A DNA stretch of 64,000 nucleotides from Apostichopus japonicus. Taxonomy: Eukaryota > Echinodermata > Holothuroidea > Aspidochirotida > Stichopodidae. The stretch is taken from assembly GCF_037975245.1 (NCBI RefSeq), contig NC_092567.1, forward strand, positions 20,149,376 through 20,213,375, in the 5' to 3' direction. Shown piece by piece: positions 19,658 through 61,891 of the stretch. Each line of letters begins with the position of its first letter. The stretch's first letter is position 1. The notes below the pieces were generated by a model. That model saw only the letters and a list, made by a program, of their open reading frames with translations, did not search any database and was not told where the DNA came from. The position numbers were made by a program, and so were the translations under genes.

Positions 19658-27977
<8,320 letters not shown>

Positions 27978-31555: not shown

Positions 31556-32887
31556 TTAAATACACGGATACCGCAAACCAATTCTAGCAATAACTTCGCG
31601 ACTCTCCGTCGCTAAAAGGCGTACGGGCTCGTCGTCACTTAGGCACATCAACTTTCGAAAACCGGGAGTGACGTTGATTACTTCAATAGTTGCGTCACAA
31701 GCATGTTGGTCGGATGTTCTCCATGGTAACTGGCAAATATTAGGAGCAGATCTTGAAACTTCGCATTTAATAGCTCTCACGGTAGAGCAGAAGTGGTTGT
31801 CGTAATGATCATGGTCATCGCATACCTCGAAGTTGGGTTCAGGCAAACCGAATTGCAAATCCACTTCTAAAAATTCTTCCGCCTCATGACGGACGAGAGA
31901 AGTTACCGGCTTGCATGGGTTATTGTTGCGTTGAAACTTGACTAACATCTCATCAGTGCCGTTACGCAGAAATAAAATAGTGTCGTTCAACGTGAGTTCG
32001 TCTACTGGAAGATACGGAATGATTAAATTTGGTTTATCTATTTGCTTATTATGTCGATCGTAAAGAATACCGAGAGCTAAGGAATACTGAGGAAGGCCGC
32101 CACGTGGCTTGTCCGTAAGAAGTGGTATAGCAAAGGTCACACCGCTTTCTTCGTTAGAGAGGCAAGGATCTGTCTCATCCAAGAAATCTGTGAAAACGGA
32201 TTCACCAGCACTGAAATAGATCACGTGCTCGTTTGCCTTCAAAATATTGGGAAATGCCGGTTTCTCGGGGAGAAATAATCGAGGTCCTTTCAACATGAAG
32301 AGAAGAAACGAAAGAAAAAGTTACATGTCGACAATTATCAGAAAAATGGTGGTTGCAGGTTAGCTATCGGAGATTGTTAAAATAAAGATAGCTTAATTAC
32401 TCGTAAACACATGCCAATATTTTTTTTTAAACATGGTGAGTGGCCTATATAAACTATCATGATCGCGTGTATGAAAACTTTAACTCACACAAACCACTGA
32501 CGAAATTTCAGCCAAATCGAATACAAAATAACGAACTGACGGCATGCATTCAAACACGGTGGCCAAAAAAAGTGACAGATTTTCTACAGCCTATTCGCAG
32601 GATCTCTATATACCGTAGCCTACCTTAGTTGAAAGCTTTCAGCTCAGCTATAACATTAGTATATACTTACGATGACACGAGCCGGATACGTTTGCGTAAT
32701 AAAACTCATCCAATATTTGTTGTACGGTTTCGCGATTCACGATAACGTACATAGAAATCCCAGTCCATGACTGGTTGACAAGCTTCTCTATGACAATTCC
32801 TCTCACCCAAGGACTCAACAAAATAAATACCACGAGCAAAAACTTAGTTCCTTTAATTATTAGAATTAACGTTATAATGATTAGCAT
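31556..32887 (-). CDS. Unrecognised secreted or type II membrane protein, Cys-rich
   Basis: Exon 1 is 32887-32671 and exon 2 is 32286-31556, joined in phase 1 by a GTAAGT donor and a pyrimidine-rich AG acceptor, giving 315 residues. An in-frame TAG lies just upstream of the ATG. Residues 2-28 are strongly hydrophobic with one basic break (K12, K15), so a signal peptide or signal anchor is likely. Five N-glycosylation sequons are visible (N38 QS, N66 VS, then NDT, NGT and NVT). There are ten cysteines, nine of them from exon 2, which fits disulfide bonding outside the cytosol, plus a His/Asp-rich CDDHDHYDNHFC segment that could bind metal. I do not recognise the family. It is the only minus-strand gene between KRR1 and MTPN and sits between inverted copies of a repeat. 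The two-exon fit makes it a credible real gene. Confidence 0.65.
32465..32651 (-). repeat. Inverted partial copy of the 30.4-kb repeat, inside an intron
   Basis: Reverse-complemented, it matches 30431-30600: the shared blocks are GCTGAAAGCTTTCA, GCCACCGTGTTTG and ATTCGATTTGGCTGAAATTTC. It occupies the second half of the unknown gene's only intron and ends about 20 bases from the splice donor. Confidence 0.75.
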
Positions 32888-34892: not shown

Positions 34893-37800
34893 ATGGCAGA
34901 AAGTTTGGTGTGGGCCGTGAAAAATGGAGACTTGGATGCACTCAAAAGTCAAGCTGAGGTAATTTGTAAATTAGTGTCAGACACATTATAGGCTGGAAAA
35001 TTAATAACTTTTCATGTTGCATGACAATGGTGTTAATAGTTAGGCCTACTGTAGACTGTAGTGTAGGCTTATTACTAACCTAGCTATTCCTAGGCTCATC
35101 ACTATCAATGCCACAAGTAACGTAAAGTTAGGTTACAGTTCCAACAGGTCTAAGCTAATCATGTGTTCGGCTAACTGCAGGCATATGCAAGGAGGAAATG
35201 ATGTACTGTTGACATCCAGGCATTTCATTACTGTCCGCAGTTTGTAGCGACACAAACAAAACGTCACTTGCAAGCAACAGAAAGTTAACTTTTTCAGATG
35301 GCCGCATGCTGTTTGGGGCGAATCTTTAATGCCTTTAATTGTAGACCTACATAAGTCTGTATGACTAAAGCACACGCCATGTTGTGGTAGTGGACTCTGT
35401 GATTCTATGTTAGACTTCTGCAACTTTTCAGATAGTGGCCACCATTTGGCATGTACTTTCTATCATTGTCATGAACCATTTTTTCATCCATGGATTGTAA
35501 GTACTTTGCTCAAACTTAGAGCATACATTCCAAAAGAATATTATTAAGGAGAAAATAATATTTTCATTTTACAAACCCAGATATATCTTTGCAATGTCAG
35601 CCACTCTATTCAGGTACAATTATATACTGTTCCCTAATGTCACCACCCCACCTTCCCATGTTCCCCAATTGTATTTCCAGGGACAAACTAAAACGAATGA
35701 CAGCGAATGACCGAATGACAATTGACTTTGTACAGGGTTAATTATCATTTGCGAATGACACCGAATGACAACGAAGGACAGTATTGAGAAGAGATAGAAT
35801 GATTAACGGAGTGGAGTAAATGCGGTTATTGGTTTTCTGCGCAAAAATGATTGGAGGAAAATCGCATATAACGTGGTTGCAGGGTTTTGGTGTAATTTAC
35901 GGATAGAAACCACAGGGAAAGTTTTTGTGTGAGAATGCGCTTGAGTGCTGTGCTTTTTACCTCTGTACTGTAGATTTATATAGAAAGATAACTGAAGCCG
36001 TTTCAAGATTATAGTATTGTTAGTTTCTAACAATTAATATCGGAAAAATATACCCACGAAGTCTGAACTGTGATTTCCGGTTGAAGCAAATGTCTGTGCT
36101 GTCATTACTGTCATTCGTTTTAGTCAACGCATTGTTTTAGTGTGTACAACATATTGTCATTCGTTATGTGTAACGCAATTGTCATTCGTTTTAGTAACAC
36201 CCGTATTTCCAGATAAAGAAGCCATGGGACTCTTGGTTTTACCACCTTATATCCTTCTGCACATCTAAAAGGTCACTGATTGTTTTTTTTGTTTGACCGT
36301 CGTTATTTTTCAACATTGAGAAAATTGAATAACATATATGGTTGTACATTAATGTATTAATGAAAGCAATGCTTTTGATGGTATCAATTAGTTTTTTTTG
36401 GGGGGGGGGAATGTTTGACAATTATTGACCATCATTTAAATCTCTTGCATATTTGACGCTCAGTTTTGACAAACTTTAAATAAGATGCACATGGCTCCAA
36501 TTAATTTGCATAGCTATCCAATAATCCAGATTTTTTTTATGATCACTCAAAGTTTTTAAAAACGATATCTGAAAATTTTCAAGATATTTTCATAAAAGCT
36601 TGAAAACTTGAGAGCCTTTGAATGGTTTGATCTTGATCTAGGAAGATGGTCGATAACAGATCTTGAGCTATTTCCGTGGAATTCCAGAATTGAAAGAAAG
36701 ATCCATGTGTATTTATTACCCCCAAAAATAATACTTCCACCACGGTAACCGTGTTGTACCTTTCAGCATGCCGGTATCAACAGTCTTTACAAGGAACAGC
36801 TTTTCTTTACCAGTGCTACACGTAGCATCGCTACGAAAGAACCGAATACTCTCCTCTGTGTTTTTAACGATGAGTGGATCTCTTGCTTGTTTACATTATA
36901 AGTTCGATTGCTTTTTTAAGCTCTCAATTTAGTAAAACATGCTTCACAATTTCCTCATGAATGTACACATATGTGCAAAAGTAGCTGCATTTGTCACATT
37001 TACCCGATGATTTTGACAAATCTACGTAAATGTTCTAAACTCACTGATATACAAACTACGTATCTTTAAACCGCAGGCGTCCGGTTTCGATGTGAATGCA
37101 CAAGTGTTACAGGGTAGAGCGCTAATACATATTGCTGCCGACTACGGTCAAGCTGATGTCATTACGTTCCTCATTTCCAAAGGAGCTGAAGTCAATGTGA
37201 GTATATTTTGCCAAAACTTTTTTCGGCCCAAATTTACACAATGGCTTCCTGAGGTAGTTTCATATTACTTGCTAGAAAATAGACTTTTCTTTTGGAATTG
37301 CTATGTCATCAAAATTTTTGAAGTAAACATGATTTGAAGTACAGTACAGGCAGACAATCCTTATTTAATTTGTCTTACTGATATTAAATTTACACGATGA
37401 TTGCAATTCTTGGTTTCATTTTCAAACTAGTCTCGTTAACTTTGTTCAACAATGTTCACCAATCTTGTGTATTACCCAAACTACTGTTAAGTAATATTGC
37501 TGTTGATCACCCTAAGAAAACCCTACCCGATTTTCTTTCTCTGAGTTTTGCTTTTAAAATTCAAATATTGGTTTGTTGAGCGAGAATTCGATGATATTCT
37601 CAACATTTAGGTGGTAATGAAAACTTTTCCTGGTCATTGACAGTTTATCAATCACTTTTTAAAGGAATAGCAGATAATTTCAACTTTTTGTTTTTAAACT
37701 GTTATTGGGCTGTGGAGGTGGTTGGCAGGGGGAGGGGTGGAGGGGGTAGGAGAAGAAGGCAGTCAGTTCTATAATTTTTGAAAGGTATTTATCCCAGTGA

Positions 37801-40800
37801 AGCTACTTGATTTTCTCACTGGTCAAAATCTTTGAGGAGGACAGCCTGCGCACTTCGTAGATGGTTAAAGAAAAAGTTCATTAGCATTTATAGTGTGGTA
37901 TCCGAGCGTAAGAAATGAGACTGTAGATAGTACAAGAAACACAACATGTGGAGTACACAAGATGGAAAATCTATTTGTGTGTTTGTACCAACTGGACGAT
38001 AGCATACAATGCAACAATGAATTCAACTTGGTATAATGGGAATTCAACACTGTGACAAATAGTACAGCATGTTATGGCATTAAAGTTGTAGACACACATG
38101 GCATTGTTTCAAAATGATTTTTTGAGGATTGCCTGCTGCCCTTTGACAATTTTGTTGACTATAATTATTATTTTTGTTATCAAATTTCCTTCTTGTAAAT
38201 GGTAATGTATGAAATTTCTTTTGCATAATTGAGCTAAATATTCAAGTCCAGAACTGAATATGTGTAGGTATATACTTAACATAGTCATATTTCATCGTCA
38301 TAGAGTTTTTCAGCCTAAACGTGGTCTTAAAGTGACGATACTGAACTTTGAGGAGTTAATTTAGACTCTATTTGCCTTGTGTTTCCCATCATTGATGCAG
38401 ATTCACTGCCCGAATTATTTAGTTCTCCTATCTTGTCTTGCAATTTCGAAGTCTGTGAATATTGTGTAGACCTTATCACATATATACTATGGTTACTGTG
38501 TAAAAGACAAAAAGACAAACAAAAAGCCATGCTTGTACACATTGTTGTCACTTGTTCATTCATATTGCATAGCATTTTTGTAATTTGATACGGGATAAAT
38601 TAATTCCACGATTGATACTAGTGACAACTGTGTATGGATCTATATATATATATATATATTATATATATATATATGCTGACAAAGATAAAGGGCTACAGGT
38701 GCTTTCATAAGATGTGTACGTGTAACCTGTTGAGCCCTTTAAGATAAATGCTAGGTCAGTTTTAAACTTGAGCTCCGCAATGTTTATTTTATACCACGTA
38801 TTCCTTCCTGCGTTGGCATTAAAGACTATAATTGGCTTGTTTTTTTTTCCATACTCTTAACTCATTGAATATGTCTTGATCTTTCTTCCTTGTTATCTTT
38901 AACAAAGTTAGAACTTTTGTTTGGAGATTGAACTTAGATGGAGAATGCTTCTTGTGATAGTCAGAATGGCTATTTTTGATTGGAAAATGTAGGAGGCAGG
39001 AAAAAATAACAAAAATGATTTGAATAATTCAGTTATGTCTGGATCTCCACAGACATAAAGGATAAAGCAATTTGTCTAGAGAATTGGACACTAAACTACA
39101 GATCTATGAGTACTAGCTCTTCTTTCAGTGCATGATCACTGCAAGTAACAGTGGGAATAAATGTTAAGAACAATTATGTGTATGTATATTCAAAATAAAA
39201 TAAAACTGTTAGCAAACTGCTTATCCAGTAGAGAGCCTGTGAAAGAGAATGTGTAAAAGTAAGTTGGCCTTCTTCAAAGGCTATATGACAAGTAACAGTA
39301 CCATGAAGGACAAAAACACGCACAGAATACAGACAGGTTAATGAGCATGGTGAACACAGAGAGATAGATGTAAGGGATTAGTAGACAAGGGATGGAGAGA
39401 AGAAAGAAAGAAACCAACAGGGGAAGAGGAGAGGTAGGAGATATAGGAGAGGTGGAGGGACAAAGAGAGGATTAAGGGAAGGGGGTAGGGAATACACTAG
39501 AGAAAGACAAAGACAGAAAGATGTGGAGAAAAAAGGGTGGAAGAGAGCTATGAAAAGAGGAGTGATATATATAGTATAATAGTAAATTGTATATATTCAG
39601 CGCTAAGTACTGTGTTCAGTACTGAAATGCGAACATAGAGTAGGTCACCAGGGGGATTAATTTATCCGGTATCGCATCCCAAAATGCTATGGAAAATGGT
39701 CAAAATAGCTAGATTAGTTCAGAGATGTATATATATAGCAGTTTGATTTTTCAATTGTAATTTCATTAGGGACAAACTTCAGAGACTTCAAAAAGTGGTA
39801 CACAACATTTGAAAACTAAATTAAATTCCCCATTTGTTTCCTGTTCCAGATTGACATTCTATCATTTTCAAAATTTCCAAAATCGTAAGAAATCGGTAAG
39901 CCTCAGACATACTGTGCATAGTCTAACAGTATCGAATAGCCAGTACTAGAAGCTATTTGTGCCTAACATACTGTATTCATATCACAAGTTTCTTCGCCCT
40001 ATTTCTGCAATTCTGTTACTGGATACGTCGTGCTATCGTATCCCTAGTCTCAGATGCTATTAACCTGTCGTCTTTTGTTTCCTGGATACTGCTTTCAGTT
40101 TCCCGGTTAGCGATAAGAAACTATCTTCACAACACAAGGAATTAATGTCTAACAGATAGATTAATTAGATTTATTGCCAGATGGATCGTAAAAATTCATG
40201 ACAGTACGTGCAGTATCCTTAGTGAATAGTCACTCAGTTAATACTGTATGTATATGCAGTTTCTTCCTTGTGTCGTGGAGCTCAAAAGTTTTCTTTGCAC
40301 TTGGCAACGTTCGGTTTGGTATGTTGTAGTATCCATGTTACTTTACATAGTTATACAGTTATTTAAGGTTATATATTTTTAACAAAGTTCATGGCTTCCA
40401 AAACGTGGGATAGAGAGTACTATAAAATTAAAACCAAATGAAAACACCCTCGGTCCAAAACCCAGATGGATAGTTCCTTGAGTGGCTGGGATGTAAGAGT
40501 TTTGAATACATTCTGGTGAGGTGGGAGAATGTCGGAGCTTTACCACTGGACTTGAGAATATGAGAGTGAAAATACAAAGGTCTTCAGGTATGATTCAGAC
40601 TGAACTCAAAATAAAAGTTGAGGCTTCTGGGGGTCATCGTCAGGTGCGAGGTGTAAAGCGTCAAGGGGGTGGGGGTGGGGAGAGATGGGAGAAGTGTTGC
40701 GCGGGTTGAAGTGTGTCTGGTGGGGCCAATGCAGCTGATAAATTGTCGAGCATCTGTCATTTAACATGCTGTAGAATGTGCAGCTTGTAGTAAAATTTAG

Positions 40801-42554
40801 AAAGTTTGCTGCATCTAGTAAATTCCAATGTATTTGTACGGTACAGTTCATGCCAGCCCAATCTTCCAGAGGTTAGGAGAGGATGAATTTCGGGTGTCCG
40901 TAGGGACCAGTGCAGTGGAAAATTGTCTGGCATTCATCATGTGACCAGCCTTTGGGGTATCTTTGCGGTCATTTAAACCTGGTTCTATCCGATACAACTT
41001 CCAGTGTGTGAGCTTGCCAAACTTTTGTGGCCCCAAGCAGGTCTTCTGGTGGTTCTTCTGGGGGTGTCTCACTCAGCCACATCTAAGGTTGATAGCGCAC
41101 GCACAAGTTTTACGAGTTCGTCATTTTAAATCTTGTTTTTCTCACCTTTTACTTGTTGCTACAGTGTGCAGACAAACATGGCATCACTCCATTGTTAGCT
41201 GCTATTTGGGAAGGACACGAGACCTGCGTTAGTCTATTGTTATCAAAGGTGAGTACGAACAATTTTCCATAATTTCACAAAATTATCCAAGTGACAGCAT
41301 GATATTTTAAAAGACATCATACATTGTGCAGAGCATTCTATTCTGAAATGTTTGCAAATTCAACTTTTATGACTTTAACGAAGGATCTAGTCTTAAATTA
41401 TGTGACCGGCCCCTTGACGAAGGAAATTAAGTAATATTAATTAAAATGATTTCACTTCAGGGAATAGGTTCGTCAGGTATCAGCATTGGCTTAATAACGA
41501 TATACAAAAGATGCATCGCAGTTTGCATCCACTGACTGTTTTGTGTAATTTCATAAGTAGCAATTTAATACAAGATAAAACACTCGCAAAGAACAGCTAT
41601 GTACACCAAATCGTGCAGGCGAAATTGTTCCACGTTTTGTTTGAAAGGTGGTAACACCTTATTAATTTTTACCTCTGTTTGTCAGTCCGTCTCCTTCTCC
41701 CTACTGCTGCTCCTTTTAAGGCTAAAATTGAGTATAATGTCAGCTCCACATTGCAGGCGAAAATGTTAACCTCATATTTATCCATTATTTTGTTAAATTC
41801 AAATAACTCTTATCAGAAACATTTATGTTTCATATTAGTAGCAGAGGACCCTGGGATGCTATTATTATTTATTATTATTACTATGTATTTGATAGAGCGC
41901 TATACAGAAACAAATATAAACTACACAATAAAAACAAACACTAATCCTAAACACAAGCAATAAATACAAACATTTTCTCTGCAGTAAATAAGTAATAAAT
42001 AAATAAAGAAATAGTAAATAAATATTCATCACCATTTATTCAAGGCAAAGTTTTATTGCATTTTCAATTGTGTCATTTTAATAATGCCATAAAAGTGTTA
42101 TTTTTTTCCTATTGAGTTTTTGTTTATTGTTGTGTGTTTGTTTCTGGTTGCATCTGAGGATCTGAACTACTTGCTTGTGTGTTAGACTATTAAAATTGTC
42201 CGGTCGCTTAGAATTCTAATGAGCCTCGGGTACATGTGTAAAATGGTAATCGCTCAAAAATTGATGGTTATTAGTACAGAAATACAACCTGCACTGACAG
42301 CAGGTAAATGTGTTGTAATGGTTTGCAACATATGAAACATAAAATTTTGCATCTGATATGTCAATCATTCATGGTTTTTCACCAAAGGGAGGGGGGAGAG
42401 GGGGGTGGTTATTGTGTCCCCTACAGATGTCTCAACCGATTAGTCTTTCTTTCTTTTAATCAAACAGGGAGCAGATAAGAGCGGCAAGGCACCGAGCGGA
42501 GAGTCATACTTAGATTGTGCAGAGAAGGAAAGCATAAAGCAACTTCTTAGATGA
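34893..42554 (+). CDS. MTPN: Myotrophin (ankyrin-repeat actin-capping regulator)
   Basis: Four exons, 34893-34958, 37077-37196, 41165-41248 and 42468-42554, in phase 0 with GT-AG borders, encode exactly 118 residues, the same length as vertebrate myotrophin. The protein is almost entirely ankyrin repeat: an N-terminal [18 protein letters not shown] helix pair, a repeat with [18 protein letters not shown], one with [20 protein letters not shown], and a C-terminal capping repeat ending IKQLLR. Myotrophin (V-1) is a small cytosolic protein that sequesters actin capping protein and so permits barbed-end growth; a role with NF-kappaB has also been reported. Introns are large (2.1, 4.0 and 1.2 kb) and hold a MITE and other repeats. 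I am confident of every exon. Confidence 0.96.
35680..36202. mobile_element. Mutator-type MITE in MTPN intron 1
   Basis: A perfect 9-bp direct repeat, GTATTTCCA, flanks the element (35671-35679 and 36203-36211). The ends are inverted: GGGACAAACTAAAACGAATG on the left, and GGGTGTTACTAAAACGAATG as the complement of the right. Several internal copies of CGAATGACA occur near both ends. A 9-bp duplication and GGG-starting ends fit a Mutator-like (MULE) element; that class is inference. It is 523 bp long without coding capacity. Confidence 0.85.
37197..41164 (+). other. MTPN intron 2 with dispersed repeats
   Basis: Contents include a TA microsatellite (38641-38674), a purine-rich GA tract (about 39355-39560), a copy of the repeat also at 59530-59608 (39191-39270), and at about 39650-39730 a diverged copy of the 5728-5870 repeat (TTATCCGGTATCGCATCC, AAAATGCTATGGAAAATGG). 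No gene is seen. Confidence 0.55.
41865..41930. mobile_element. LINE-type 3' tail fragment in MTPN intron 3
   Basis: A TTATTATT run adjoins GAGCGCTATACAGAAA, resembling the GCGCTATATAAA tails elsewhere in the window. The fragment is too short to classify. Confidence 0.35.
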
Positions 42555-45500: not shown

Positions 45501-48500
45501 ATCAGAAATGATGTTGATGAAGATTAAATGAAGAAAAAAGAGAAAAAAAAGGCAAACTTAAGGAAAGAAAGATTTTGTAGAATAGTATTTACATATCATG
45601 GAATAGAATGCTTGCGTTAACCTATCATGATGTACTCCATCTAAAACTAAGTTGCTTCAATGTCAAAGTGATATGGTAAATAACTTTTTGTATACATATT
45701 ACTTCAAAATTTCTTACTTTCTTTTGTATTTAGTCATCGATGGTAATTTGGAAAAAATATAACTCTTAAAAAGAAAGCTAAAAGATTTGTTTGTGTCAAT
45801 TAGTAGTCACTGACTCCCAGATGTGAAGGAAAGAAACTGCAGCTTCCATAATGATAAACTGAAATTGAGGGGGTGAGGTGGAAATCCTATTCCTAACCAT
45901 AGGGATACCTGGTCTAGGAAACTAACCCTTGGGGATCCTATCTGTGGGGAAGGGACCCGTGGGGAAGTCCACCTGCGGTACAAATGCCTCGAAAATGAAG
46001 GTAATATGAAATTTGCTCTGTGTTAATTAGTAGTCACTGACTACATATGGGAAGGAAAGAAATTGCTTCCATAATGATAAACTGAAACTGAGGGGGTGAG
46101 GTGGAAATCCTATTCCTAACCATAGGGATACCTGGTCTAGGAAACTAACCCTTGGGGATCTTATTTGTGGGGAAGGGACCCGTGGGGAAGTCCACCTGCG
46201 GTACAAATGCCTCGAAAATGAAGGTAATATGAAATTTGCTCTGTGTTAATTAGTAGTCACTGACTACATATGGGAAGGAAAGAAATTGCTTCCATAATGA
46301 TAAACTGAAACTGAGGGGGTGAGGTGGAAATCCTATTCCTAACCATAGGGATACCTGGTCTAGGGAAACTAACCCTTGGGGATCTTATCTGTGGGGAAGG
46401 GACCCGTGGGGAAGTCCACCTGCGGTACAAATGCCTCGAAAATGAAGGTAATATGAAATTTGCACTTTTCATTTTAAAAGTTCTAATGTTGGGTGCCACT
46501 TTGAAGATGCTACCAGTCAAAAGATTCTTTCTCGAAAAAATTCTTTCTCGAAATTTTGACTTTTTTTTTAAATTTGACTTGTTTTTCTTGCCAATGGCTC
46601 GACACTTCTAATCTTTCTCTCGGAATTAAACTTTTTGTCGGTTGCGTTCGACTTTCTTTACCGTTCCTTTTCGATAGAGAAATCCTCCCGCAGGGACAAT
46701 TCAAAACTTTGATTGTCTGCAAGGGAGGATTAATATAGTTTGTAAGCCAAAGTACGTTGGATAAGCCTACCCATGTAGCATGGGCAAATACAGGTTTTTG
46801 CTACAACTTGGGCTTGAGAGCCATGCATTTTATAGTCACGGTCCACCGGTCACTTCGCCCGAAGCCCAATTGTTCTCATACTTGGTCGGTTTCCTGGGGT
46901 AAAATGAGTAAACAAACCGGCTTGTTAAGTTAAAAGTCTGCAACGCAAAATAGCTTTCTACACCCTTCCACATATTGTTAATTTTGTGCATCATGTACAG
47001 CAAATTGTTTCACGTCTGTTGGCATTAAGCTGGAAAGGAGAAAACATTATCCTTTCATATTATCGATAGGATAATGTTCTTAGAAAGATTTAATGCTGTA
47101 TAATGAAGGAATCGCATGAATGAAATAAAAAATTCTCTCATATATGATTTATATTGACTATTCTACTGTTTTATTATGACAACAGCGTGTGTTTGAGTCA
47201 CTAATATCATCATAACGCTAAATTGGTGTGTTACATTACAGTACATACTGGTTCCAAAGGCGTCCAAAAATCCTGGAAGTTGTACTGTAAGCAGATCGTT
47301 ATCGATTGCCCCATAACTTCGACTCGGAATTATCCAGTTTTACACAGATAATATTTTCTGAGGCTATGTGTCGTTAACATTTGGATAGGTCACAATCCAG
47401 AAAACAAGGTACTGACGCCAAAGCCAACGTTAGTTAGGGCTGGTCCACAAACCTGTTGTTAGGCCTAACGACAAGGCCTTACATAACATGGCCTAGGCTA
47501 AAGTCCAAATGAGTTAGGCTAGGCCAAGGCTTAAATTAGTACAAGTAGCCGCTTAGGTTAGGTCAAAGTTAATATTACACTAGTACCAGTAGCATAACAC
47601 AAGCATGAATGGGAGCCTATTAGTCTATCCTTTCGTTAGGAAAAAGGCCAGTGTTACTCTGTGGTTATGTTAGGCCTAAGGAAACTGACCAACTCGATTT
47701 GAAGTGCTTTTTGAGACAACAATATATTGTATCTCCTCTATGGGGACTTCCGGTCATGATCTCAGTGTGAGATTTAAGAGCTGCAGGGTATTCTGCAATT
47801 TAGCAAAGACATTGAACAAAGCCTTGTCATTCCATTTTGGGATGACGGTAGCACTAGTACTAGTAGCATGCATGTGTTTCATTGATAGCCTTATTAAGCT
47901 AAGTTATATCCTGCTATGAAAGAGCCACTGTTACTGTTAGATTCTGCCACAGTTAGTTTCCGCCCTAGTTTGGTAGGTGCTTTCCACCATTGGAGAAAGC
48001 AACTTTATGAAGCCTATGGCATAAACCACTGTTTTGATAGGTATGGAACATTGTTTATTTGTTGGAATTACAAACAAGAGTAATGTAGGCCTTACCTCGA
48101 TCAGTCCAAGGCTAGAGATATGTTAAAAGAGAAAGTATACCTTGACTGCATCATTTAGGCCTTTATATATATATTTTTATTATTTGGATGGAAATATCTT
48201 CACATCAATTTAAGATATCTTAAAATAACCTACAGCAGGCCAACATTCATTTCACACACATTTATTGAACCATATCTTTGCTCTTTGTTAATGGTTATAA
48301 ACTTTGATTACCTTGGTACACCCTTTCCATTAACAAGAGAGATCATAAGTTGTGCAAATGCTTTCTATGTTGACTTGTTTTATTATTCCCCACAATGACA
48401 GTAACCTAAGTAATTAATTAGATATGTTTCTGACCATTAAAAATACTGTTGTCAGTCCAGGCTGCAGTTCCTAAGAAAACAAATAAAAAACCTCATTAGG

Positions 48501-48713: not shown

Positions 48714-51700
48714 ATGGAGGCTGGCATGAAGCCATATCCGACGCAGCCTGACACCAGCGAAGATCACATATACAGCCTTGCACATGGCGGTGGTCACGGC
48801 CATTCCCATGGAGACGGTCACGGCCATTCCCATGGTGACGGTCACGGCCATTCCCACGGCGGTGGTCACGGCCATTCCCATGGTGGTGTACCCTGCAGTG
48901 GCCACGGGGATCAAGGCCATGGTAAAGGAACCCATTCAGAGAGTGACATGATGGACCATAAATTGGCGCTTCCATTGCCACCTGGATTTGAACCAAGCCC
49001 CAGGACCCATGATATCGTCAAGGCAACGCAGTACGGCTTAATAGACCAAGTGAAGGAAGTCATCGAGGATGGGTTTGATGTTAATCAGCCCGACCTTGAG
49101 AATGTGACCTTACTACACTGGGCGGCCATAAACAACAGACTGGATATTGCTAGGTATTATAACTACACTTTTTGTGGGTTTTTTTTATACTTAATTCTGT
49201 CTTTCTTCTTTGTATATATAACAGATGTAAAATATTTGGTCGCAAAATATATATGGAGCAAAACTTAGAAATCGTGTATGATACTGTTGGAGCAGACAAA
49301 ATTAATAAGAAGCAAAATTGGAGGGGATAAATGCAACAACTGTAGGCTTAGCAACCAAACATAAAACATTTATTTGACAAAAGCAAGGAACTTCATGGGC
49401 ACCATGGGCAGCAGTTTTTGAGCTTTAAACTTTGTCATACTGTGCCAAGATTCTGTGTTCAATCGCTATACAAAATCATCCCTGCATTTAAATTAAAATT
49501 TAGTCCCTTTGGCATACATTCACATTGTACTGTGCCCGACCAGTTAATCTTTTCCTCTTCACCACAAGTTTACAGGTCGTGTACACAGAAGGCAAAAATA
49601 CCGGCAATGACTCCTTTCTATCCATTTCGTCATTTCTTTTCAAAGGTACTTCATCTCAAAGGGTGCCATTATAGAGAAGCTAGGAGGTGACCTCAGTTCC
49701 ACCCCACTTCACTGGGCGGTCAGACAGGGTCATTTGCCGATGGTCGTTCTCCTGATGCAGTACGGGGCGGATCCTTCCATTCGGGATGGGGAAGGTTACA
49801 GCTGTATTCACATAGCTGCTCAATTTGCACACACTGCAGTTGTGGCTTACTTAATCGCTAAGGGACAGGTGAGAAAATCGATAACCCCCCCCCCCCCAGT
49901 CTTGGCTGTTTCTGATGTCCAGTAATCGAACCATAACAGGTGTTCAGAGGATAGTTTAGTGTTCAAACTTTGTGTAGCAGTTTTAAAGATTTTGAATTTT
50001 GTCTCTGATAAAATGCTTACATTCCTATGTACCAAAACTGCTAGACATATCTGCACTTGTGTAGCTATCTGACCTTTTACATACAGGAAATTTTCCAATG
50101 CGATGCCAGATAAAATGGTCCCTGAGGTGTCTCTATGTGAGATTGTCACTGTGCTTCCCCTCTTGCTTTCTTGGAGGGGGGAGGTGGGGGGGGGTTTCTT
50201 TCTGGAAATTAGACAAGTAGACAACTGTATTGTTGAGAACAGTCTGTAAGGAGTGTGTTTGGTAATAAACAACCATATATGATTGCCTACAGGACTCTAC
50301 AGAAATAGAACAACTGTGGCACAAAAAAACATTAGCTAAAAAAAAAAAAAATCCTTTTTTGTTGAACGTTGTCAGAGACCAGGTACACATGCGAAAATTT
50401 AGCGTGTCTTTCTCTTCCTGAGAATCCTGGACTTGACATCACCATCCTACTGTGCCATTACCCTACAGTGTAAACAAAAAATATGAATCATATGAGACAT
50501 TTGATCTTAGATACAGGAGCTAAAAAGATAGAAATATAAATTATTAAAATTTGTCCCTGCAACAGGAATGTTTGTCTGTTTTAGCAAGTGTCAGATTGTA
50601 CTGTTGTTTGTAACACGCTGTAAAGCCAAGCACAAATTGTGTCCTTTTGTTTTAATTAACAGTTCATTGTTGCTGATAATATTTTTTTTGCTTCCATATT
50701 GACAGGATCCTAACATGGCTGATGCTAATGGAATGACACCACTGATGTGGGCTGCGTACAAGACCTTTGCGTGAGTGTTTCCAATTGGCATGGTTATTAA
50801 AAGTACACGATATGTTGAAATCTCATTATGATTAGCTCAGATCGAAATGTAGCAACGCATTTAGAAATAGCTGTCTTTGTAAATTTATATGAAAATATCG
50901 TTGAGGGTTATTCTCTGAAGCTTGGAGACAGTTACAATGCCTAATAAACTATCTGTTTTTTTTTCGTTTTTTTTACTAATATTTTGTCAATATTTAGCAT
51001 CCTTCTAGCCAGTTTTACCCATTTCTAGAGTGATAAATATCTGTGTGCGTAACTTTTGTGTGCGTGCGTATCGTTTTGTGGTGCATTTATCACTTACCAC
51101 AATGCAGTATTAAAACTGGTCTGAAACTTATTTAAATTAATTAGTTAATTGATTATGTAAATTATGTATCTTTGTGTAAATATTTGATGTAAATAGGCTG
51201 TCACTGATGAGCTGAAATCATAATAATCAGTTTTGCTTTTTAAAGGAACATTCCAGAGGTTGAGCAAAAATTGAGCTGAATATCTGGAAAACCAATCTAC
51301 TCTAGCTATGGAAACATTGCTATTACCCAAATGTTTTCTCTCGGTTCATGACGTGTCGAGACTAACATTCTGCATGATGTGTCACCCCTACAACTTGTCT
51401 CGTTTTTTTTTCTACTACAGGATCGATCCTACGAGACTCCTTCTTACTCTCGGAGCCAGTCCAAATATCCAGGATTCTAAATTTTTAAACGGTCCTCTTC
51501 ACTGGGCTGTCGTTACCAACAATACTGCATCTTTGAAGTGTCTCTTGAAGGCTGGAGCTGATACCTATATGGAAAATAAACTGGTGAGTCTTTATACATT
51601 GTAGCTGTTGCATAAGCGGGGGGGGGGGGGAGGGGGGAGGGGAGAGGAGGTGGATCTCTCTTTGTTGGTATATATCTAGTCATCGAATGGTGAATTTCAC

Positions 51701-54700
51701 CTGAAGATCCTTCCCCTGCTACTTTTCCAGGTGGTATCAAATGTAGGTGGGATGTGATTTCTAGTTAAAACGATATGAAAAGATACTGTGGCTTCTGACT
51801 GGTTATCCCCTCCCCTCAAGTAAAACAAACGGCTAGCTATGGAATCATCACCAGCTGGGGGCTGTAGAGCGCAGGACTGAGGTTACTGGGTTGAATTCAG
51901 TTCTAGGCCTAACTTTCATTTCAGAGCTACAGTAGTCCTGCTGGTCAGCTTAGACCCCCATTAACCATGGGCGGCAAGTCTTGTTCATGTTCATTCACTC
52001 CTCATCACCTGTATTGCTCTCTTTACCGCTACCCATGTCTTGGCCCCTCCCCCGTCCACTCGCACCTCAATATTGAAACGTATATATGTTGGAGTTGAAC
52101 CCACAGCAGTATGTTGTACTAAAGCCGACACCTGCTTACCGATGGCAAGCACACAAATCTGTGGCTTCTAAATATTCTTTGGCCTCTTTACTCATGATAT
52201 CTTTGTATTTTTACTAATTTATCAAATATGGCAACTTTGTAATTGTCGTTGTTTACTCTCGTCCAGAAACAAACACCTCTAGACCTCGCATCCATGAGGA
52301 AGAACGGCTTCCTGATCATGAAACTGAAAGAACATAGAGGCGAGACCGTTCAACAAGCCGGTAATTCACTGCTCAACAGACTGAAACAAAACAAAGTAAG
52401 TTTGTAAAATCAGTCTATTTGCTAAACTTTGTTTTATTTTTGATGTAATGATAAATGCCAAACATTGATCAGTACTTTGGTCTTTTAAATGCAAAAAAAT
52501 CATCTGATGGCTTCAGGAAGTAGTTTATCTAATATCAGCGTGGAGAAAGGTAGGAATAGCAAGTTTGTGGACAAAGGGTTAGAATATTTAGTATTCTTTG
52601 GTAAAAGAGAGAGAGAGAGAGAAAAGAAAGGGGGGCCTGAAGCCTTGTTAGTGCCCAAAAAGTAAAGAATTATGTATCATCATTTTCATTAATATACGTA
52701 AAGAAGACGAAGGCTTCAAAGAGGACCCTGGTGAAGTAAAAGTCCTTAGCGACCAAACTAGCTCTCAACACCACTGTTTGTAGATAATATGCTGATTATC
52801 CATGCCAAACACGAGGTAGAAATATGAAAAATAAGCTGAAGCAAGGGAAGATACTTTTCAATCTTGACAGCAGAGCACCAAATAATTTTGAAAGTGATAC
52901 ACAGAACTTATTCTCCATCTCATCGGGATAAATCGATAGAACCGAGGCTCTCTTGGTGAAAACAAAATTTGTGTAACATATCGTTATGTGCCAGTTGTGT
53001 GGCAGTTTTATTCTCATATGGTGGGGAGTGGGTGGTGTACTTTATAGGTACTGATCACCCAATCCTTGACCGAGAGGTGTTTTTCTGCAAATCTGGATGC
53101 CCAAACTGTTCTGAATCTCTGGATGCTTTCAGTTTAGGTCATGTATAGTGCACACCTGCCACCGCACCGCTTAGGTGTGCTTCTGGGGTGAGGGGCCAGC
53201 AACCCCCCACCCGTCAGTAATTCCTAAGCTGCTGTGAACCACTGATTAGCCCATGTGGATTTCTCTTATAGTGCCTCACAGCCTTTATTAGCTCTTGACT
53301 TATGTCAATCTTCATGGGCTATTGTTCACTCTAGCTTTTATATAAAAAATAAAAAAAATCAGTTAAAACCTTATCGGGGCAATCCTCGGTTAGGTTGTAG
53401 ATGCACGATTTCCTCTCTCCCTGGCTGTCATTTCAACTTCTATCAAAGCCTCATAACGATATCGCCTCTCTTCCTCCTCCTCTCCTCCCGTCTTTCTACC
53501 AGGTCCTCAGGAGACGGATTGCCTCTGTGATGCCGTTCATGATCTTATTCTTCGTCGGTTTCATTCCCTCTCTCGATCTGTCCCTCATGATCCGAATACT
53601 GTTGCTCTGTTTTACCTACTTAGGCCTCTACATGGTTGGAAAGTAAGTCACCGTAAGGCACATGTAATGGAATGGTGTAGTGGTGGTCAGCTTAAGGCCG
53701 GTGCAATGGAATGGTGTAGCAGCGGTCACCGTAAGGCTGTAATGGAATGGTGTAGTGGTGGTCAGCTTAAAGCCGATGTATTGGAATGGTGTAGTGGTGG
53801 TCAGCTTAAGGCCGATGTAATGGAATGGTGTAGCGGTGGTCACCATAAGGCTGATGGAATGAAATGGTGTAGCAGTGGTCACCGTAAGGCTGATGCAATG
53901 GAATTGTGTAGCGGTGGTCACCATAAGGCTGATGTATTGGAATGGTGTAGCAGTGGTCACCATAAGGCTGATGTAATGGAATGGTGTAGTGGTGGTTACC
54001 GTAAGGCCGATGTAATGGAATGGTGTAGTGGTGGTCACCGTAAGGCTGATGTAATGGAATGGTGTAGTGGTGGTCAGCTTAACACCGATGTAATGGAATG
54101 GTGTTGTGGTGGTCACCGTAAGGCTGATGTAATGGAATGGTGTAGCAGCGGTCAGCTTTAGGCCAATGTAATGGAATGGTGTAGCAGCGGTCACAGTAAG
54201 GCCGATGTAATGGAATGGTCTAGCAGCGGTCACAGTAAGGCCGATGTAATGGAATGGTGTGGTGGTGGTCACAGTAAGGCCGATGTAATGGAATGGTGTA
54301 GCAGTGGTCACCGTAAGGCCGATGTAACGGAATGGTGTAATGGTGGTCAGCTTAAGTTGGAAGGAGCGAGTTAAATGGAGACAAAAATCGCAACCAGCAT
54401 CATAGTTCTGTGTGATAGAGATAGCTGTATGTATATAGGCCTACATTGTACCTTAACAAGGGGTATCGCGACGGCAATGGTGTAAGGTGTATCAAACAAC
54501 TGGGTTGAAAAGTTAACTACAGTCTGTGTAGCTTGGCAGCAAACAAAGAAATTGGAGAAATCACTTTGGTGACGTCCTCTGTGGAAGATAAGAAGTCATA
54601 ATCCAGGCTGGCAACAAATCGTACATTACAGCACGCATGCAGGCACACACACACGCACTACAACTCATAGTAGAACTACATATAGGCTGATTGGTATTAG

Positions 54701-57700
54701 TTGCAATCTGAATAGCTTTAATCTGATTGGACAATCAAGAAACATCCCACTCCGACACATTTATCATACAAAAAAGTGAGATATTATTTCAATTTTGTGT
54801 GTATTGTATTGCATCGCATCGCATACATGTAGTTTGAACGGTCTCTTACATTGCACACTTTTTATGGTATTGTGTTTCATCTGCTCGTGTCGCGTAGCAC
54901 ATCGTGTGAGCAGGGCCTTACTTCTTTAATAGCTGTGTCTTATATTTCTTGGATTTGACAATTTATGACAGAGTTATAGTATTTCTTGTTCTCATCATTT
55001 TTTGTTTTCCTTCTCATTCAGGAACATTATGGACACACATGCAGTCGAAATTCTTCCAATTTCTCTTGGACTCAGTACCAAACTTTGTCTCTATTCAACA
55101 TTTTTTTACATACTGTGGCCTCATATCCTTTTTATATATAACAGAAAAAAAATAAAATATAAATAATAAGGATCAAATTTCAGTCTCTGGTATGTACACT
55201 TTTAAGAAAGGAAACACCTCCCCTCCCCCCCCCCCAAAAAAAATAAAGATACTATTTGTGTACTGGGTTTTACCAAATGTAACATCCTAAACTTGAAAGC
55301 CATTACTGATGAACTTTTACCAAGTTAAAATACATGTAATATGACAATTGCAATATATACATTTGTTTTTCATTTTGGGGGTAGAAAATTGGCTTTTTCT
55401 GCATAACATTCAGGCGTATAAAATACCATATTCCGTCAACAACGATCGTTTATGGGAATTGTCGTATTTTACTTGTAAAGGGCAAGCAAGCTTTCGGTTT
55501 GAACAAGATTTGAATGAGTCAACTCTGGGGTTAGAAGCCCTGTGCTTACCTGTATATTCTTAGGGTCACAGGGATTGTAAAACCCTAAGGGTCACTGCTT
55601 CCAGTCCCATTATCATATAAAAAGAGTTGTTTTGCTCGTCTAAATTTGGTTACATATTTTCAGGTGTGTTTTCGATAGTGGATTTTTTAAGTGATATTTT
55701 ATTGTCTGTGAACGAGTGGACTTTAACTCACGTCACACATGTTGACTGCATCAAACAGATTGTCTTCCTCTGCTCGTCCTTCATGATGTTACTGTCGTTT
55801 TACAAATGTTGGAAAGGAGATCCAGGGATCATCAAATGTTCTGAAGACGACCGAAAGAGGGTGAGTAAATCAACATTCGTTCATTCAGTGATGTGGGGTT
55901 GGGTGCTAGTGGAGGGGACAGATGGGTTGTCAGATATTTGAAGAAACATTATTTTAGGCCACAAAAGATGGTTTTTCTTCTTTTGATTTGTGTATGGCCA
56001 ATGATGAGCTCCCCTGATGTGTTGGGCAGTGTGCTTGACTCCCTTGTCCAGCCATTTTAATTTATTTGCCATATATGTAAGGTTTTTTGTTTTTTTTCAA
56101 GAAAATAAAACCAAATATAGCAAAGTAGCAATGTACCCTCCAAAAAGTCTTTGTGTACAGTACGGCAATATATTCACCAAAGCAAGGAGAAACTTGTCGT
56201 AGTGTTGAGTGAAGGTACTTGTAAAGTGTTTTTTTTCCAGTAGGTATGTTGGGCATGTTGATGTTGCTATATTACTGATACTTCAGCTCTGACAGTTGTT
56301 GTGTTGGAATGTCAGAATTGTAACACTACGGATGGATAGTTTATCAATTGGGAGGATGTTGTCGTTCCTTAGATCCACCCCCTTCCAGAAACGCAGCTCT
56401 TTGGTGGGTTGGTCGCAAGATTTTTCTCCAGGGGTTGGAATCAATTTCGTCGGCAGTGTTTTCTGAGTTTGTCGACAGAGGTCGATGAAACTATTTGATC
56501 AACCCATCAATTCCAGAGTCCCAGCTAAGCTTTCGAATATTTCAAACATCGATTCTGAATAGTGGGGGAGGGGAGGGGGTGTGGGGGGTCTGGTTGATTG
56601 TGGCTCAGTCCTCTTGGAAGATGGAAGGTCACGGGTCATGCAGGCTTAAAGTTTGCTGGTCCGGCCGCCGCAGATCATGCATTGTAATCTAATCAGTAAA
56701 TTTCTTTGTCCCTAAAATTTGTGTTTTTTCTGACTATGATTTTGTTTGTACTACTTACAGAGGCGTTTTGTCAGAAAAATTATTCCTTTTCTTCTTTCAT
56801 AAAGTTGTGGAAGTGGATATGGGTAGGGAAAGATTAGGGATTTCCAAAACCCTTCTCAATGAAACTTTAGACTAATATTTCCTTTTCTTATATTCTTCAA
56901 GCAGACCATCATCGAGTTAGCGGAAACATCGACGCTGGAGTTAGACAGATTCTGTACCACCTGTCTGATTCGTAAACCCGTTCGTTCCAAACACTGTTCT
57001 CAATGCGACCGCTGTGTGGCCAAGTTTGACCACCACTGCCCCTGGGTGGACAACTGTATCGGTGAGACATACCGCTTTATTCGTTCTACCTTTTGCCGGT
57101 AATTTCTGTTGCATATGTGTGCTGTTTTTGACTGAACCCTGCCATTCTTGTGGTAAGAGGAACCTGAAGCATAGTCTGGGATACTGTCGCGTCCGTCCCG
57201 GTACGGGAAGGCAGATTTCGATGGTCACGTGGAAGGGACGACACGAATAACGTAAATTATCAGTGCAACAGAGATATATAATGATTTCGTTCTATTTATT
57301 TTGCAGGATTGATTAGATTAAATATGTTGAAACCTATATAATTTGGGGTAATAATATGTTTAACGTGCCTTTCACACACGGAGACCTTACACGGTAAAGG
57401 TTAACAGTAAGACTGAAATGTCTTACAAAACTGCCATACACGAGGTAAAAGACATGATACTTTCACCCAATCATAACTAAATGTTTCTGTCACAAGACAG
57501 CAGCAGCCAATCACACTCTTGATTTAATTCCTGGAAATCATTTAAGGGACGTACATCTGCATCTATTAAATATACATGTGGGTTCACGACACTATAAGTG
57601 TTTGACCTAACAGATACTAAGGTCATTTCATTGGCATAATGTAACTCTGAGACAAACTTAATGCATTCACCTAAACACTGGCTCTGGAAAACAGTTTTAC

Positions 57701-60700
57701 CCAAATTCAGGTGTGGAGAGGGTGGGGTGGGGAGGGGGTGGGGTATTTGGACCAGTTCAGCAATTGTTTTACTTTTTATCATGTTCATCTCTGTGTGAAG
57801 GCTTTGGTTAAACAAGTCCATCATTGAATCAAACTCAGGACAGTCAAGATGGAAGGTGATTGACAATCGTTTGGTTTCAGTTTAAAATGATTATTATCGG
57901 TTTATTTCTTTGACTTTTGTACAGACGTCATTATTTTTAAAAAAGGAATTCAAAGTGAAAATTTTCACCGTAGATTTGGGCATTATCATCTCTCAGTAAT
58001 TTTGGTTCATGATAACATCAATCACAGTCGTGGGTGTATGTGTGGTGGTGTTTGGGGAAATGAGAGAGAGTGGAGGGGGATGGGGGGTAAGGGGCATAGA
58101 GGAGGGTAGAAGTAATTGTGCTTTGATTGTTTTTACTAATGCCTTCATCTTTTCTCCCATGGTGTCTTTGACAGCGGGTGTAGGTTCTCTCCTGAGCTGT
58201 AAAAAATATACTCATAATTTCCATTTTTCTTCTTCTTTGTTATCAGGTTCCGGCAATCATATGTGGTTTATCTTTTATCTGACATTTCTGCCTCCCTGCC
58301 TCGCGATCTGCATCAATGGCATGTTGCACTGTAAGTCGGGTTGCCTCCTTTCAGATAGTGTTAAAAGTGTTAGTTGTTTTCATTTGATACTTGTAGCTTC
58401 CTATTTTATAAATTGTTTGAAAATATAGTACTGACATAAAAATGAAACAGAACCTTTTTATTTGGAATCTATATTGTGAGCATAAATCTGGGAGTATGGT
58501 ACACAAAGCAATGAGATGATAAGGGTATCTTAGAAGGTAATATTGCTGATTTACTACACATAAACAAGGCATTTGAAATAATCAAAATTGTGTTGTCTTT
58601 TGACATTTACTGACAGGAACCTTTAATGTCATAACACATTGTGTGAAAGACTCCTCCTCCTCCTGCTCCTCCTCCTGCTCCTCCTCCTGCTCCTCCTCCT
58701 CCTACCCCTCCCCTCCCCCTCCCTGCTCCTCCTCTCCCCGCCTCCTCCCCCTCCCCCTCCCCTCCTCCTCCTCTCCCCTCCCAATCCCCCTCCTCCCCTC
58801 CTACTCCTCCCCTCCTCCTCCTGCTTCTTCTACTCCTCCAACCTCTCATCCTCCTCTTCCCCTTCCTCCTCCTCCCCCTCCTATGCCCCACCTCCCCCTC
58901 CTCTCCCTCCTCCTCCTTCTACCCCTCCACCCCCTCACCCTCCATGCTGTATGCAAGTCCCCCCCCCAACTTTTTCCACTTTGACATGCCAAACATAAAT
59001 TGACCTCTCGAGTAATTATTTTGACCTGCTGTCATCTTCAGTGCTACTACTGGCTAGTGCAGGCTGTCTGTATGTGGCTTGTGCAGGCTGGCTAGCTGTC
59101 TGTCTGTATCTGTGTACATGTGATTGTGAAGTTAATTACACAGAAACGGAAAACAAAAAACATAAGCCAACTGAAATTGACAGTTGCAATTTCCTACGTT
59201 ACACTAACAGTTTCTTTTTCAAGGTTTGTACTTCCTGTACGAGTCGAACATATGTTTCCGTCATGTCCATTGCAATTAGTAGTGTAGATTGTATTTCATG
59301 TTAGTGAAGGCATGGGTATGGCATTGATTGCAGTCAATGTTAAGACGTGAAAATATCTGTCTTTATTACATCCCTTTGTTCATGTCAGGGTTAAAAAAAA
59401 AAAATTATGTAGCCTGTCTGGGTCTGTATAGTCAGTAGCAATTCTAAATTGGATTCGGAAGATTTGATTAGATTAACCGACAAGGAAACAAGATTTATCT
59501 TAAATCATCACACGTTTATACTTTAAATTAAAATAAAATAAAACTGTTAGCAAACTGCTTATCCACTAGAGAGCCTGTGTAAGAGAATGTGTAAAAGTAA
59601 GTTGGCCTGACGTCCTAGCAGGATCTTCTTCAAAGGCTAAAAACAGCCTTTGAAGAAGCCTTTTTTTTAGCCTTGTTTTTTTAGCCTTTGAAGAAGATCC
59701 TGCTAGAATCAAAGTCAGGCCAACTTACTTTTACACATATACTTTAAATTGAGAGAAATAGCTGTTGATCAAACCTTCCATGTCATTTTTCCTAGATTGG
59801 TCGGATGTTTGCCACACGACCTTCGAGGTGGACGGTTTCTGGATCTATCTCGGCCAGGTGACCACCTGTTCCCCGTGGACCTTCTGGATGTTCCTCAACG
59901 CCATCGCTCACATCACTTGGGTCTTGGCTCTCTTGCTTAGTCAACTTTTCCAGGTAATCATATAAGTTATAATATAAAAGGAGACTACAAACCCAAAACA
60001 ATCATTATCGGTTTTATGTGATAAGAGACAAGTGTCACAAACAATCTCTGCCAATTTGCTGAGAAAATATCTCATTCGGTTTCAAATCAGCTCTCAAAAC
60101 GTATCTTTTCACCAAAGCATATATGTTATATCTGTTATTATTATGCTAAGCGCTACGAAAATTATTTCATAATTTGTTTGGCGCTATATAAAAATGATGT
60201 ATTATTATTATTATTATTCCGGTTGAGAGATATCACAGAATTTTATAATTCCACAGAACACCACGCTGAAGACTTGATCAAGTCTAAATCTCACGTCGTC
60301 GTATCACATGTGCTTCATATTTTGACATTTTGTTTTCGTTGTCTTTATTTAAATTTTATATTCTCCTACTTGAGATGGGTTTAGCAATTTCTGCTGAAAT
60401 CTAAAATATTGAACCTTCTTGACATGACCTAATGGCTGCATCGGTTACAGTTTCGTTACTAGACATTTCACTTTGACAAATATTGAAAGATTAAAAAACC
60501 AAAGAGAAAGTAAATGTTTCAGATGCTCATGGCACTATGACATTACAGATTTAACAGATTTAGGAAAGGATAAATTCTCGACACGACTCTTTTAAACTAC
60601 GATATCCCTACGACTCTTCTTGGCTGTTGGGGATGCGGGGAGTGGGGGGGGGGTTGTTCCCAAAGATCTCTGTCATATAAGCCATATGGTTTGGTTTGTG

Positions 60701-61891
60701 TGTCCTTTTCAACATTTTCCTTCTGGGTCGTAATTTGCTCCTGTTCAGGGTTGTAATTTTCCTCCTCCTATTCATGTGGTATTCACACAGTTCCAGAGTA
60801 CAAATAATAATGAAGTATAGAAAGAATACTTAATCATCCTTAGCCAGATTATGAAAAGAACCAAAAAATAAAAACAAATAGCATAGTATTCTCTTTGTGA
60901 TCAAGCAATAGACCAGTGCTGCATTGGTTATTTTAAATAACAGGTTTTCTCAAAGTGCCCACATGGTGAACGTGAGGAAACTATGGGTTGCTATGGTGAA
61001 CGTCTTTTGCCATTGACAAAATCTAAATAGGAGAGAACTGGCAGGTGAAAATCCACCCAACTCTAATTAGAAGGTGTCGTGAAATTTTGGTACGTTCTGA
61101 TGACACCTTCCCGCATTCCCTTTCATGAGGGATTATGATTCACCCGCCGCCTCCTCCTCCCACCCCGACCCCCTCCTCCACCCCCCACCCCGACCCCCTC
61201 CATCCTAACAAGTTTCTCTTTTGTTTGCCTGTAGGTCCTCGTGCTCGGTGTGACTACCAACGAGAGAATGAACCAGACCAGGTATATCAAACAGCACAAG
61301 GACGACGTCCATCAGAAAGGAAAGACCCCTTACAAGTGAGTAGTAGTAGTACCACGGAAAAGAGGGTCGGTGAACGAGCAAAGCGGTTCTAGATCCTTGT
61401 AAATATTATCAAGTAGCTCAGCCTTTTTGAGCCGATTTTGATATTTGGTTGATATTTGCGATATGAAAATGACCCAACTGTTCTTTTTCACAATTGATTT
61501 TTTTTTAATAAAGAGAAGATAGTGTGTGGATGATTAAAATGCTAATCGGGTAATCTTTTAACGGCGCTTCATCTTTCCGCTTGACAGCGGAGCGACGTCT
61601 CGTATCCACGGGCCGTGACCAAAAAAAATTCAAAGAACGGTGTAACTAGAATTAAGTGGTAAACAAGCATCATTCTGAATTCAAATGCCTCTTGTCTCGT
61701 TTTCTCTTTTGCTTGCGGCGTTTAGCCGAGGGTTAATCAAGAACTGTGCCGACTTCTTCCAGTGCGGTTGCTTCGGACTCGTCCGACCCCTGAGAGTCGA
61801 CTGGACCCATCAGTTCACCACCGACCTCACTAACAACGGAGTGTCCAATTTCGTGAGCTCCTCGAGCAGAGAGAATTATCAGTTTGTGTGA
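48714..61891 (+). CDS. ZDHHC17: Ankyrin-repeat DHHC palmitoyltransferase (ZDHHC17/ZDHHC13-like) with His-rich N-terminus
   Basis: Exons: 48714-49153, 49646-49868, 50706-50770, 51421-51583, 52267-52395, 53503-53642, 55022-55122, 55664-55860, 56905-57061, 58247-58330, 59796-59953, 61235-61335, 61726-61891; phases agree throughout, 707 residues. Residues 24-58 hold 13 His in GHGHSHG units. Ankyrin repeats follow (about 100-330), then six predicted membrane segments. The zinc-binding DHHC domain starts at C503; DHHC is 528-531 with catalytic C531. The family S-palmitoylates proteins at the Golgi and vesicles and recruits substrates through its ankyrin repeats. DHHC, rather than the DQHC I recall for ZDHHC13, favours ZDHHC17, but [11 protein letters not shown] near the end is ZDHHC13-like, so this may be the single invertebrate counterpart of both. 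All introns are GT-AG except intron 7. An acceptor-like CCCATCAG directly before the ATG suggests an upstream 5' UTR exon. Confidence 0.93.
53654..54362 (+). repeat. 39-bp minisatellite at the start of DHHC-gene intron 6
   Basis: About 18 units of 39 bp (one of 36) follow the pattern TGGAATGGTGTAGTGGTGGT then CACCGTAAGGC or CAGCTTAAGGC. Unit lengths are multiples of three, so long frames are open on both strands (plus 53667-54161 and 54171-54374; minus 54311-53628). The array begins within about 12 bases of the exon 6 donor, and the intron's own first bases (GTCACCGTAAGGC) resemble the unit. It is probably non-coding. Confidence 0.95.
55123..55663 (+). other. Probable U12-type AT-AG intron 7 of the DHHC gene
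   Basis: The exon before it ends in phase 1 at a site followed by ATATCCTTTTT, which matches the U12 donor consensus ATATCCTT. No GT donor after the third membrane segment keeps the frame; the in-phase GT sites upstream would delete that segment. The acceptor is TTTTCAG at 55663, also phase 1. A good U12 branch site (TCCTTAAC) is not visible; GTCTAAAT about 19 bases upstream is the weak best match. Confidence 0.5.
57062..58246 (+). other. DHHC-gene intron 9
   Basis: It holds a 129-codon minus-strand frame (57866-57477) of mixed composition with no recognisable domain, interrupted by a Pro/His-rich stretch from a purine-rich tract. It may be a relic of a mobile element or chance. Confidence 0.3.
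58650..58975 (+). repeat. CTCCTC polypyrimidine tract in DHHC-gene intron 10
   Basis: Over 300 bases are almost pure C and T, based on CTCCTC, giving overlapping low-complexity frames of Leu/Pro/Ser on one strand and Gly/Arg/Glu on the other. These are not genes. Mirror-like purine/pyrimidine stretches of this sort can form triplex DNA. Confidence 0.95.
59530..59736. repeat. Dispersed repeat with long hairpin
   Basis: The left part (59530-59608) matches 39191-39270, including ACTGTTAGCAAACTGCTTAT. Arms at 59589-59650 and about 59680-59736 are inverted copies: GTGTAAAAGTAAGTTGGCCT with AGGCCAACTTACTTTTACAC, and GGATCTTCTTCAAAGGCT with AGCCTTTGAAGAAGATCC. A third short AGCCTTTGAAGAAG lies in the loop. 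Confidence 0.85.
60080..60217 (+). mobile_element. 3' end of a CR1/L2-like LINE in DHHC-gene intron 11
   Basis: A short stretch near 60088 translates as [12 protein letters not shown], resembling the C-terminal end of non-LTR retrotransposon reverse-transcriptase ORFs. It is followed by GGCGCTATATAAAAATG and an ATT run at 60195-60217. Only the tail remains. Confidence 0.55.

Follow-up and report, generated by a model that had tools for sequence, protein, structure and literature searches.

Intron 7 of a ZDHHC17/13-type palmitoyltransferase gene is, on the evidence of its sequence, very probably a canonical AT-AC intron of the U12 type, the class removed by the minor spliceosome (our probability for this reading is roughly 0.92). 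The gene lies in a 64-kb stretch of DNA, analysed as a whole and referred to here as the window. A first-pass annotation had proposed, for a DHHC palmitoyltransferase gene at this location, an intron of the U12 type whose donor begins with AT, and that proposal is upheld in position and phase. The same annotation had the intron ending in AG rather than AC, found its branch site poor, and took it for a rare AT-AG intron or one in transition. The first two of these features arise from the choice of what is most probably the wrong 3' end: an in-phase AC at 55738 (context ACTTTAACTCACGTCACAC/ATG), 75 bases downstream of the AG at 55663 and with a 7/9 branch site 12 nt upstream, had been overlooked. 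With its branch site, phase 1 and a near-human spacing of the encoded protein, AC 55738 leaves the AT-AG or transitional interpretation without support. Once the AC end is adopted the claimed AT-AG rarity falls away, and intron 7 becomes an ordinary member of a rare and well-known minor-spliceosome class.

Table 1. Positions of the features discussed, in window coordinates
Feature	Position	Strand	Basis
RING finger, neighbouring exon	6442-6861	-	
KRR1 KH domains, neighbouring exons	20278-22367	+	
Ankyrin repeats, neighbouring exons	37017-41269	+	
ZDHHC17/13-type ankyrin-repeat DHHC palmitoyltransferase gene, coding part	48714..61891	+	open frame across 13 exons
Exon 7, third membrane segment, ends in phase 1	55022..55122	+	frame, splice inspection
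U12-type 5' splice site ATATCCTTTTT	55123..55133	+	9/9 vs RTATCCTTT
Intron 7 (AT-AC, 616 nt), very probably U12-type	55123..55738	+	
AG acceptor proposed earlier, rejected as main 3' end	55662..55663	+	
Candidate branch site ACTTTAACT, branch A 55726 (or 55725)	55720..55728	+	7/9 vs TCCTTAACT
AC 3' end of intron 7	55737..55738	+	phase, branch site, protein spacing
Exon 8, fourth membrane segment and DPG motif	55739..55860	+	

The gene and its protein

The coding gene is apparently complete in the window, with 13 exons, delimited by eye from reading frame and splice consensus. Intron 7 is the one exception among its 12 introns; the other 11 are GT-AG. The protein is 682 residues long if intron 7 ends at 55738, and 707 if it ends at 55663. 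Ankyrin repeats are followed by a DHHC domain carrying the DHHC motif, the arrangement by which a ZDHHC17/13 palmitoyltransferase is recognised. Family and structure searches, both run only with the protein model in which intron 7 ends in AC, found Pfam Ank and DHHC domains and a match to the ankyrin domain of human HIP14/ZDHHC17 (3eu9; E 4.9e-94). When the C-terminal half was compared with solved structures, eight of the nine sequences listed were DHHC enzymes. The alignments to the ZDHHC5 structure and to two DHHC20 structures start at query position 96 at the earliest, with membrane segments 3 and 4 outside them; the match to the ERF2 structure spans positions 67-186 of the C-terminal half.

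Repeats occur both within and upstream of the gene. Near the N-terminus a 24-bp repeat (4.4 copies, 48783-48888) encodes a His/Gly-rich stretch (GHGHSHGD/G). Intron 6 contains a minisatellite (53647-54356) in which a 39-bp unit recurs about 18 times; 39 is divisible by 3, and long open frames run through much of the array on both strands. An imperfect inverted repeat in intron 10 (59590-59740; gtaagttggcctgac...gtcaggccaacttac) was spotted by eye, as was a repeated unit of about 220 bp at 46000-46460, upstream of the gene, which also shows as three similar minus-strand frames and is absent from the list of a tandem-repeat scan that started at 46000. The acceptor of exon 9 is a tandem one of the NAGNAG type (CAAGCAG, 56898-56904); either AG keeps phase 0, so that one additional residue is possible.

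The donor site of intron 7

Exon 7 begins at 55022 (TTCAG/GAACATT) and its frame stays open as far as a stop codon whose last base is 55166. As had been claimed, it reads open to ATATCCTTTTT, which begins exactly at 55123 and agrees at all nine positions with RTATCCTTT, conforming to the U12-type AT-AC 5' splice site ATATCCTTT; phase 1 at this boundary is in agreement with exon 8. The 11-mer has no second exact copy on either strand of the window. RTATCCTTT was found three times in the 64-kb window against 1.85 expected by chance, and this near-chance count means that the motif on its own is no proof of a splice site. Within the final 66 nt available for the end of exon 7 (55102-55167), the motif turned up in a fraction of 0.0018 of 20,000 dinucleotide shuffles (this fraction and those given below are guides only, because thresholds were set after the sequence had been read).

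The 3' end and branch site

The candidate branch site ACTTTAACT contains the core CTTTAAC and departs at two of nine positions from the U12 consensus TCCTTAACT, as printed in PMC2846911. Its A at 55726 lies 12 nt from the last base of the intron (13 nt for A 55725), within the 11-13 nt that PMC3584512 gives as the optimum; the same paper describes a distinct polypyrimidine tract as absent from U12-type introns. Such a tract is lacking at AC 55738, where pyrimidines fill 12 of the preceding 20 positions, whereas each of the 11 other introns of the gene, all GT-AG, has 15-18 of them over the same length.

Nine AC or AG ends in 55500-55829 are in phase with an open frame, and only 55738 combines a 7/9 branch match with the optimal distance. 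The end at 55756 shares ACTTTAACT, but at 30 nt, and the remaining seven reach at most 5 or 6 of 9. (In-phase ends from 55756 onward were rejected because they would remove part of membrane segment 4 or of the DPG region. AC 55736 has the same branch site at 10 nt, but is out of phase.) Of 4000 shuffled sequences, a fraction of 0.01425 contained an AC end within 55663-55760 that was in phase and had a branch site of this quality 11-13 nt upstream; with looser settings (a 7/9 site at 10-14 nt anywhere in 55134-55820) the fractions were 0.1084 of 5000 in phase and 0.2802 in any phase, to be read with the same reservation as the donor shuffles. The gene's 11 GT-AG introns served as a control: with the A required to be in place at 10-14 nt, none reaches 7/9 and the best is 6/9 (intron 4). 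When the A is not required to be in place, intron 8, also GT-AG, has a 7/9 9-mer (TCCTTTTCT) at 18 nt.

Spacing between ankyrin repeats and DHHC motif

The two possible ends of intron 7 predict different lengths of protein between the ankyrin repeats and the DHHC cysteine, which can be compared with human ZDHHC17. The alignment to 3eu9 ends, on the window side, at R321, which pairs with position 233 of the chain. Five human ZDHHC17 residues named in PMC9800311 (Y67, E89, N100, D122 and W130) all fall on the right letters of the 3eu9 chain at an offset of 48, so that chain position 233 corresponds to human R281. The DHHC cysteine is C467 according to PMC7657471 (C467A also appears in PMC11277750), and R281 and C467 together put the human spacing at 186. 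In the window protein the distance from the last aligned ankyrin R to the DHHC cysteine is 185 if intron 7 ends in AC and 210 if it ends in AG, a comparison that assumes the stretch from ankyrin repeats to DHHC motif to hold no other, compensating change of length. In structural terms, the AG end would lengthen the connection of membrane segment 3 to segment 4 by 25 residues. The spacing is the strongest single argument for the AC end, and it is independent of splice-site scoring. Nor does it draw on the junction alignments described next, because R281 comes from the 3eu9 alignment and C467 from PMC7657471.

Hydropathy does not separate the two protein models; each has four membrane peaks before the DHHC part. 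As secondary evidence, junction alignments to presumed human ZDHHC17 and ZDHHC13 sequences gave 444 vs 422 and 326 vs 311, favouring the AC end, and they place the difference between the two models at the intron 7 junction.

Alternative readings

Ending the intron at AG 55663 (that is, a U12-type AT-AG intron at 55123-55663, rare or in transition to the U2 type) would also give phase 1 and an open frame, and TTTTC precedes this AG; because 55664-55738 is itself open, frame alone cannot exclude it. On the other side, no branch-like 9-mer at 5-40 nt upstream matches at better than 5/9, and 12 pyrimidines in the preceding 20 nt make AG 55663 a poor U2 end too. The 25 residues that it would add after membrane segment 3 and ahead of segment 4 also count against it, as does the AT-AG combination itself, which is disfavoured according to PMC3584512. 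An AT-AG intron is accordingly very improbable. (A genuine AT-AG form would represent a rare intermediate step of intron conversion; the evidence points against this.) Use of both 3' ends, AC 55738 mainly and AG 55663 partly, overlaps with the best reading and draws on the common phase and open frame of the two ends, and on the description, in PMC3584512, of U12 3' end choice as error-prone. According to the same paper, U12 introns seem to undergo almost no alternative splicing, and the lack of a good branch site for AG 55663 weighs here as well; partial use of the AG is thus quite unlikely, and just as unlikely is the stronger proposal that the minor spliceosome uses AC 55738 and AG 55663 as regulated alternative 3' ends. 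Were both ends used, the enzyme would come in two forms, one of them with 25 more residues in the loop that links membrane segment 3 to segment 4.

A different kind of alternative retains the U2 spliceosome, with another donor for exon 7 or with an additional exon inside 55123-55738. A GT at 55115, near the end of exon 7, invites this reading, and it bears on the earlier statement that 55123 is the only boundary to keep the third membrane segment. That statement was slightly overstated in that GT 55115 keeps most of the segment; yet GT 55115 is a poor donor. From 55030 to the exon 7 stop there are six GT or GC sites (four GT, two GC), none of which matches the U2 donor at better than 4/9, versus 5-8/9 in the gene's 11 GT donors, and the donor at 55123 stands after this check for an upstream GT. 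An extra exon is unneeded, because exons 7 and 8 as joined give the human spacing within one residue. A U2-type donor or an added exon is the least probable of the readings considered. The AT-AC intron of the U12 type, ending at 55738, is the reading preferred here.

Proposed splicing and its consequences

The sequence itself shows the donor, the match and distance of the branch site, the phase, the open frame and the spacing in the protein; we infer that transcripts use AC 55738 and that the minor spliceosome removes intron 7. Following the mechanism known for this class, the U11 snRNP, with the U11-48K protein, would recognise ATATCCTTTTT, and U12 snRNA would pair with ACTTTAACT, bulging A 55726 or 55725. 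The AC 12-13 nt downstream of the branch A would then be used as the 3' end, with the junction ...TGG CCT C/AT GTT GAC... joined in phase 1. Read in this way, intron 7 is one further AT-AC minor intron of the ordinary kind to be catalogued. Gene finders and readers that admit no 3' end other than AG may misplace exon 8 and make the protein 25 residues too long.

Other features of the window

A second U12-like pair is found on the plus strand at 19516-19612, where ATATCCTTTTG is followed by an AC 97 nt on, with TACTTAACT (an 8/9 branch match) 13 nt upstream of that AC. A KRR1-like reading frame starts about 1 kb downstream of this pair, which overlaps none of the coding exons recognised and could mark an intron of a 5' UTR; with eight AC sites of this kind over the two strands of the window, the pairing may well be fortuitous. 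The ankyrin repeats at 37017-41269 are presumably myotrophin-like. A 254-codon open frame on the minus strand (31559-32320) has no Pfam match at E 0.001, and Rfam gives no match within the window at gathering score, the minor-spliceosome RNAs U11, U12, U4atac and U6atac included.

Comparison with known introns and ZDHHC genes

Searches for relatives in prokaryote contigs returned three stretches that matched a pattern, none of them confirmed, and viral contigs yielded none. Among the papers searched, none named a U12-type or minor intron in ZDHHC17 or linked the minor spliceosome with ZDHHC13, which is not proof that none is known.

With the AT-AC U12-type introns collected in U12DB, IAOD and SpliceRack, intron 7 shares the donor ATATCCTTT, a CTTTAAC-type branch site 12-13 nt from the AC, the absence of a polypyrimidine tract, phase 1, and a setting among the GT-AG introns of a single gene. 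The only difference found is in the branch site, at the two positions where it departs from TCCTTAACT. In PMC7367187 the share of AT-AC among human U12 introns is put at 26% (IAOD table), and a bias of U12 introns away from phase 0 is described.

The protein can be set beside its presumed relatives in the same way. It carries a His/Gly-rich repeat near its N-terminus (48783-48888), which may set it apart from ZDHHC17 and ZDHHC13. Its likeness to ZDHHC13 (HIP14L) is presumed. With ZDHHC17 (HIP14) it shares the ankyrin repeats, the DHHC domain and, to within one residue, the spacing between them, 185 residues against 186.
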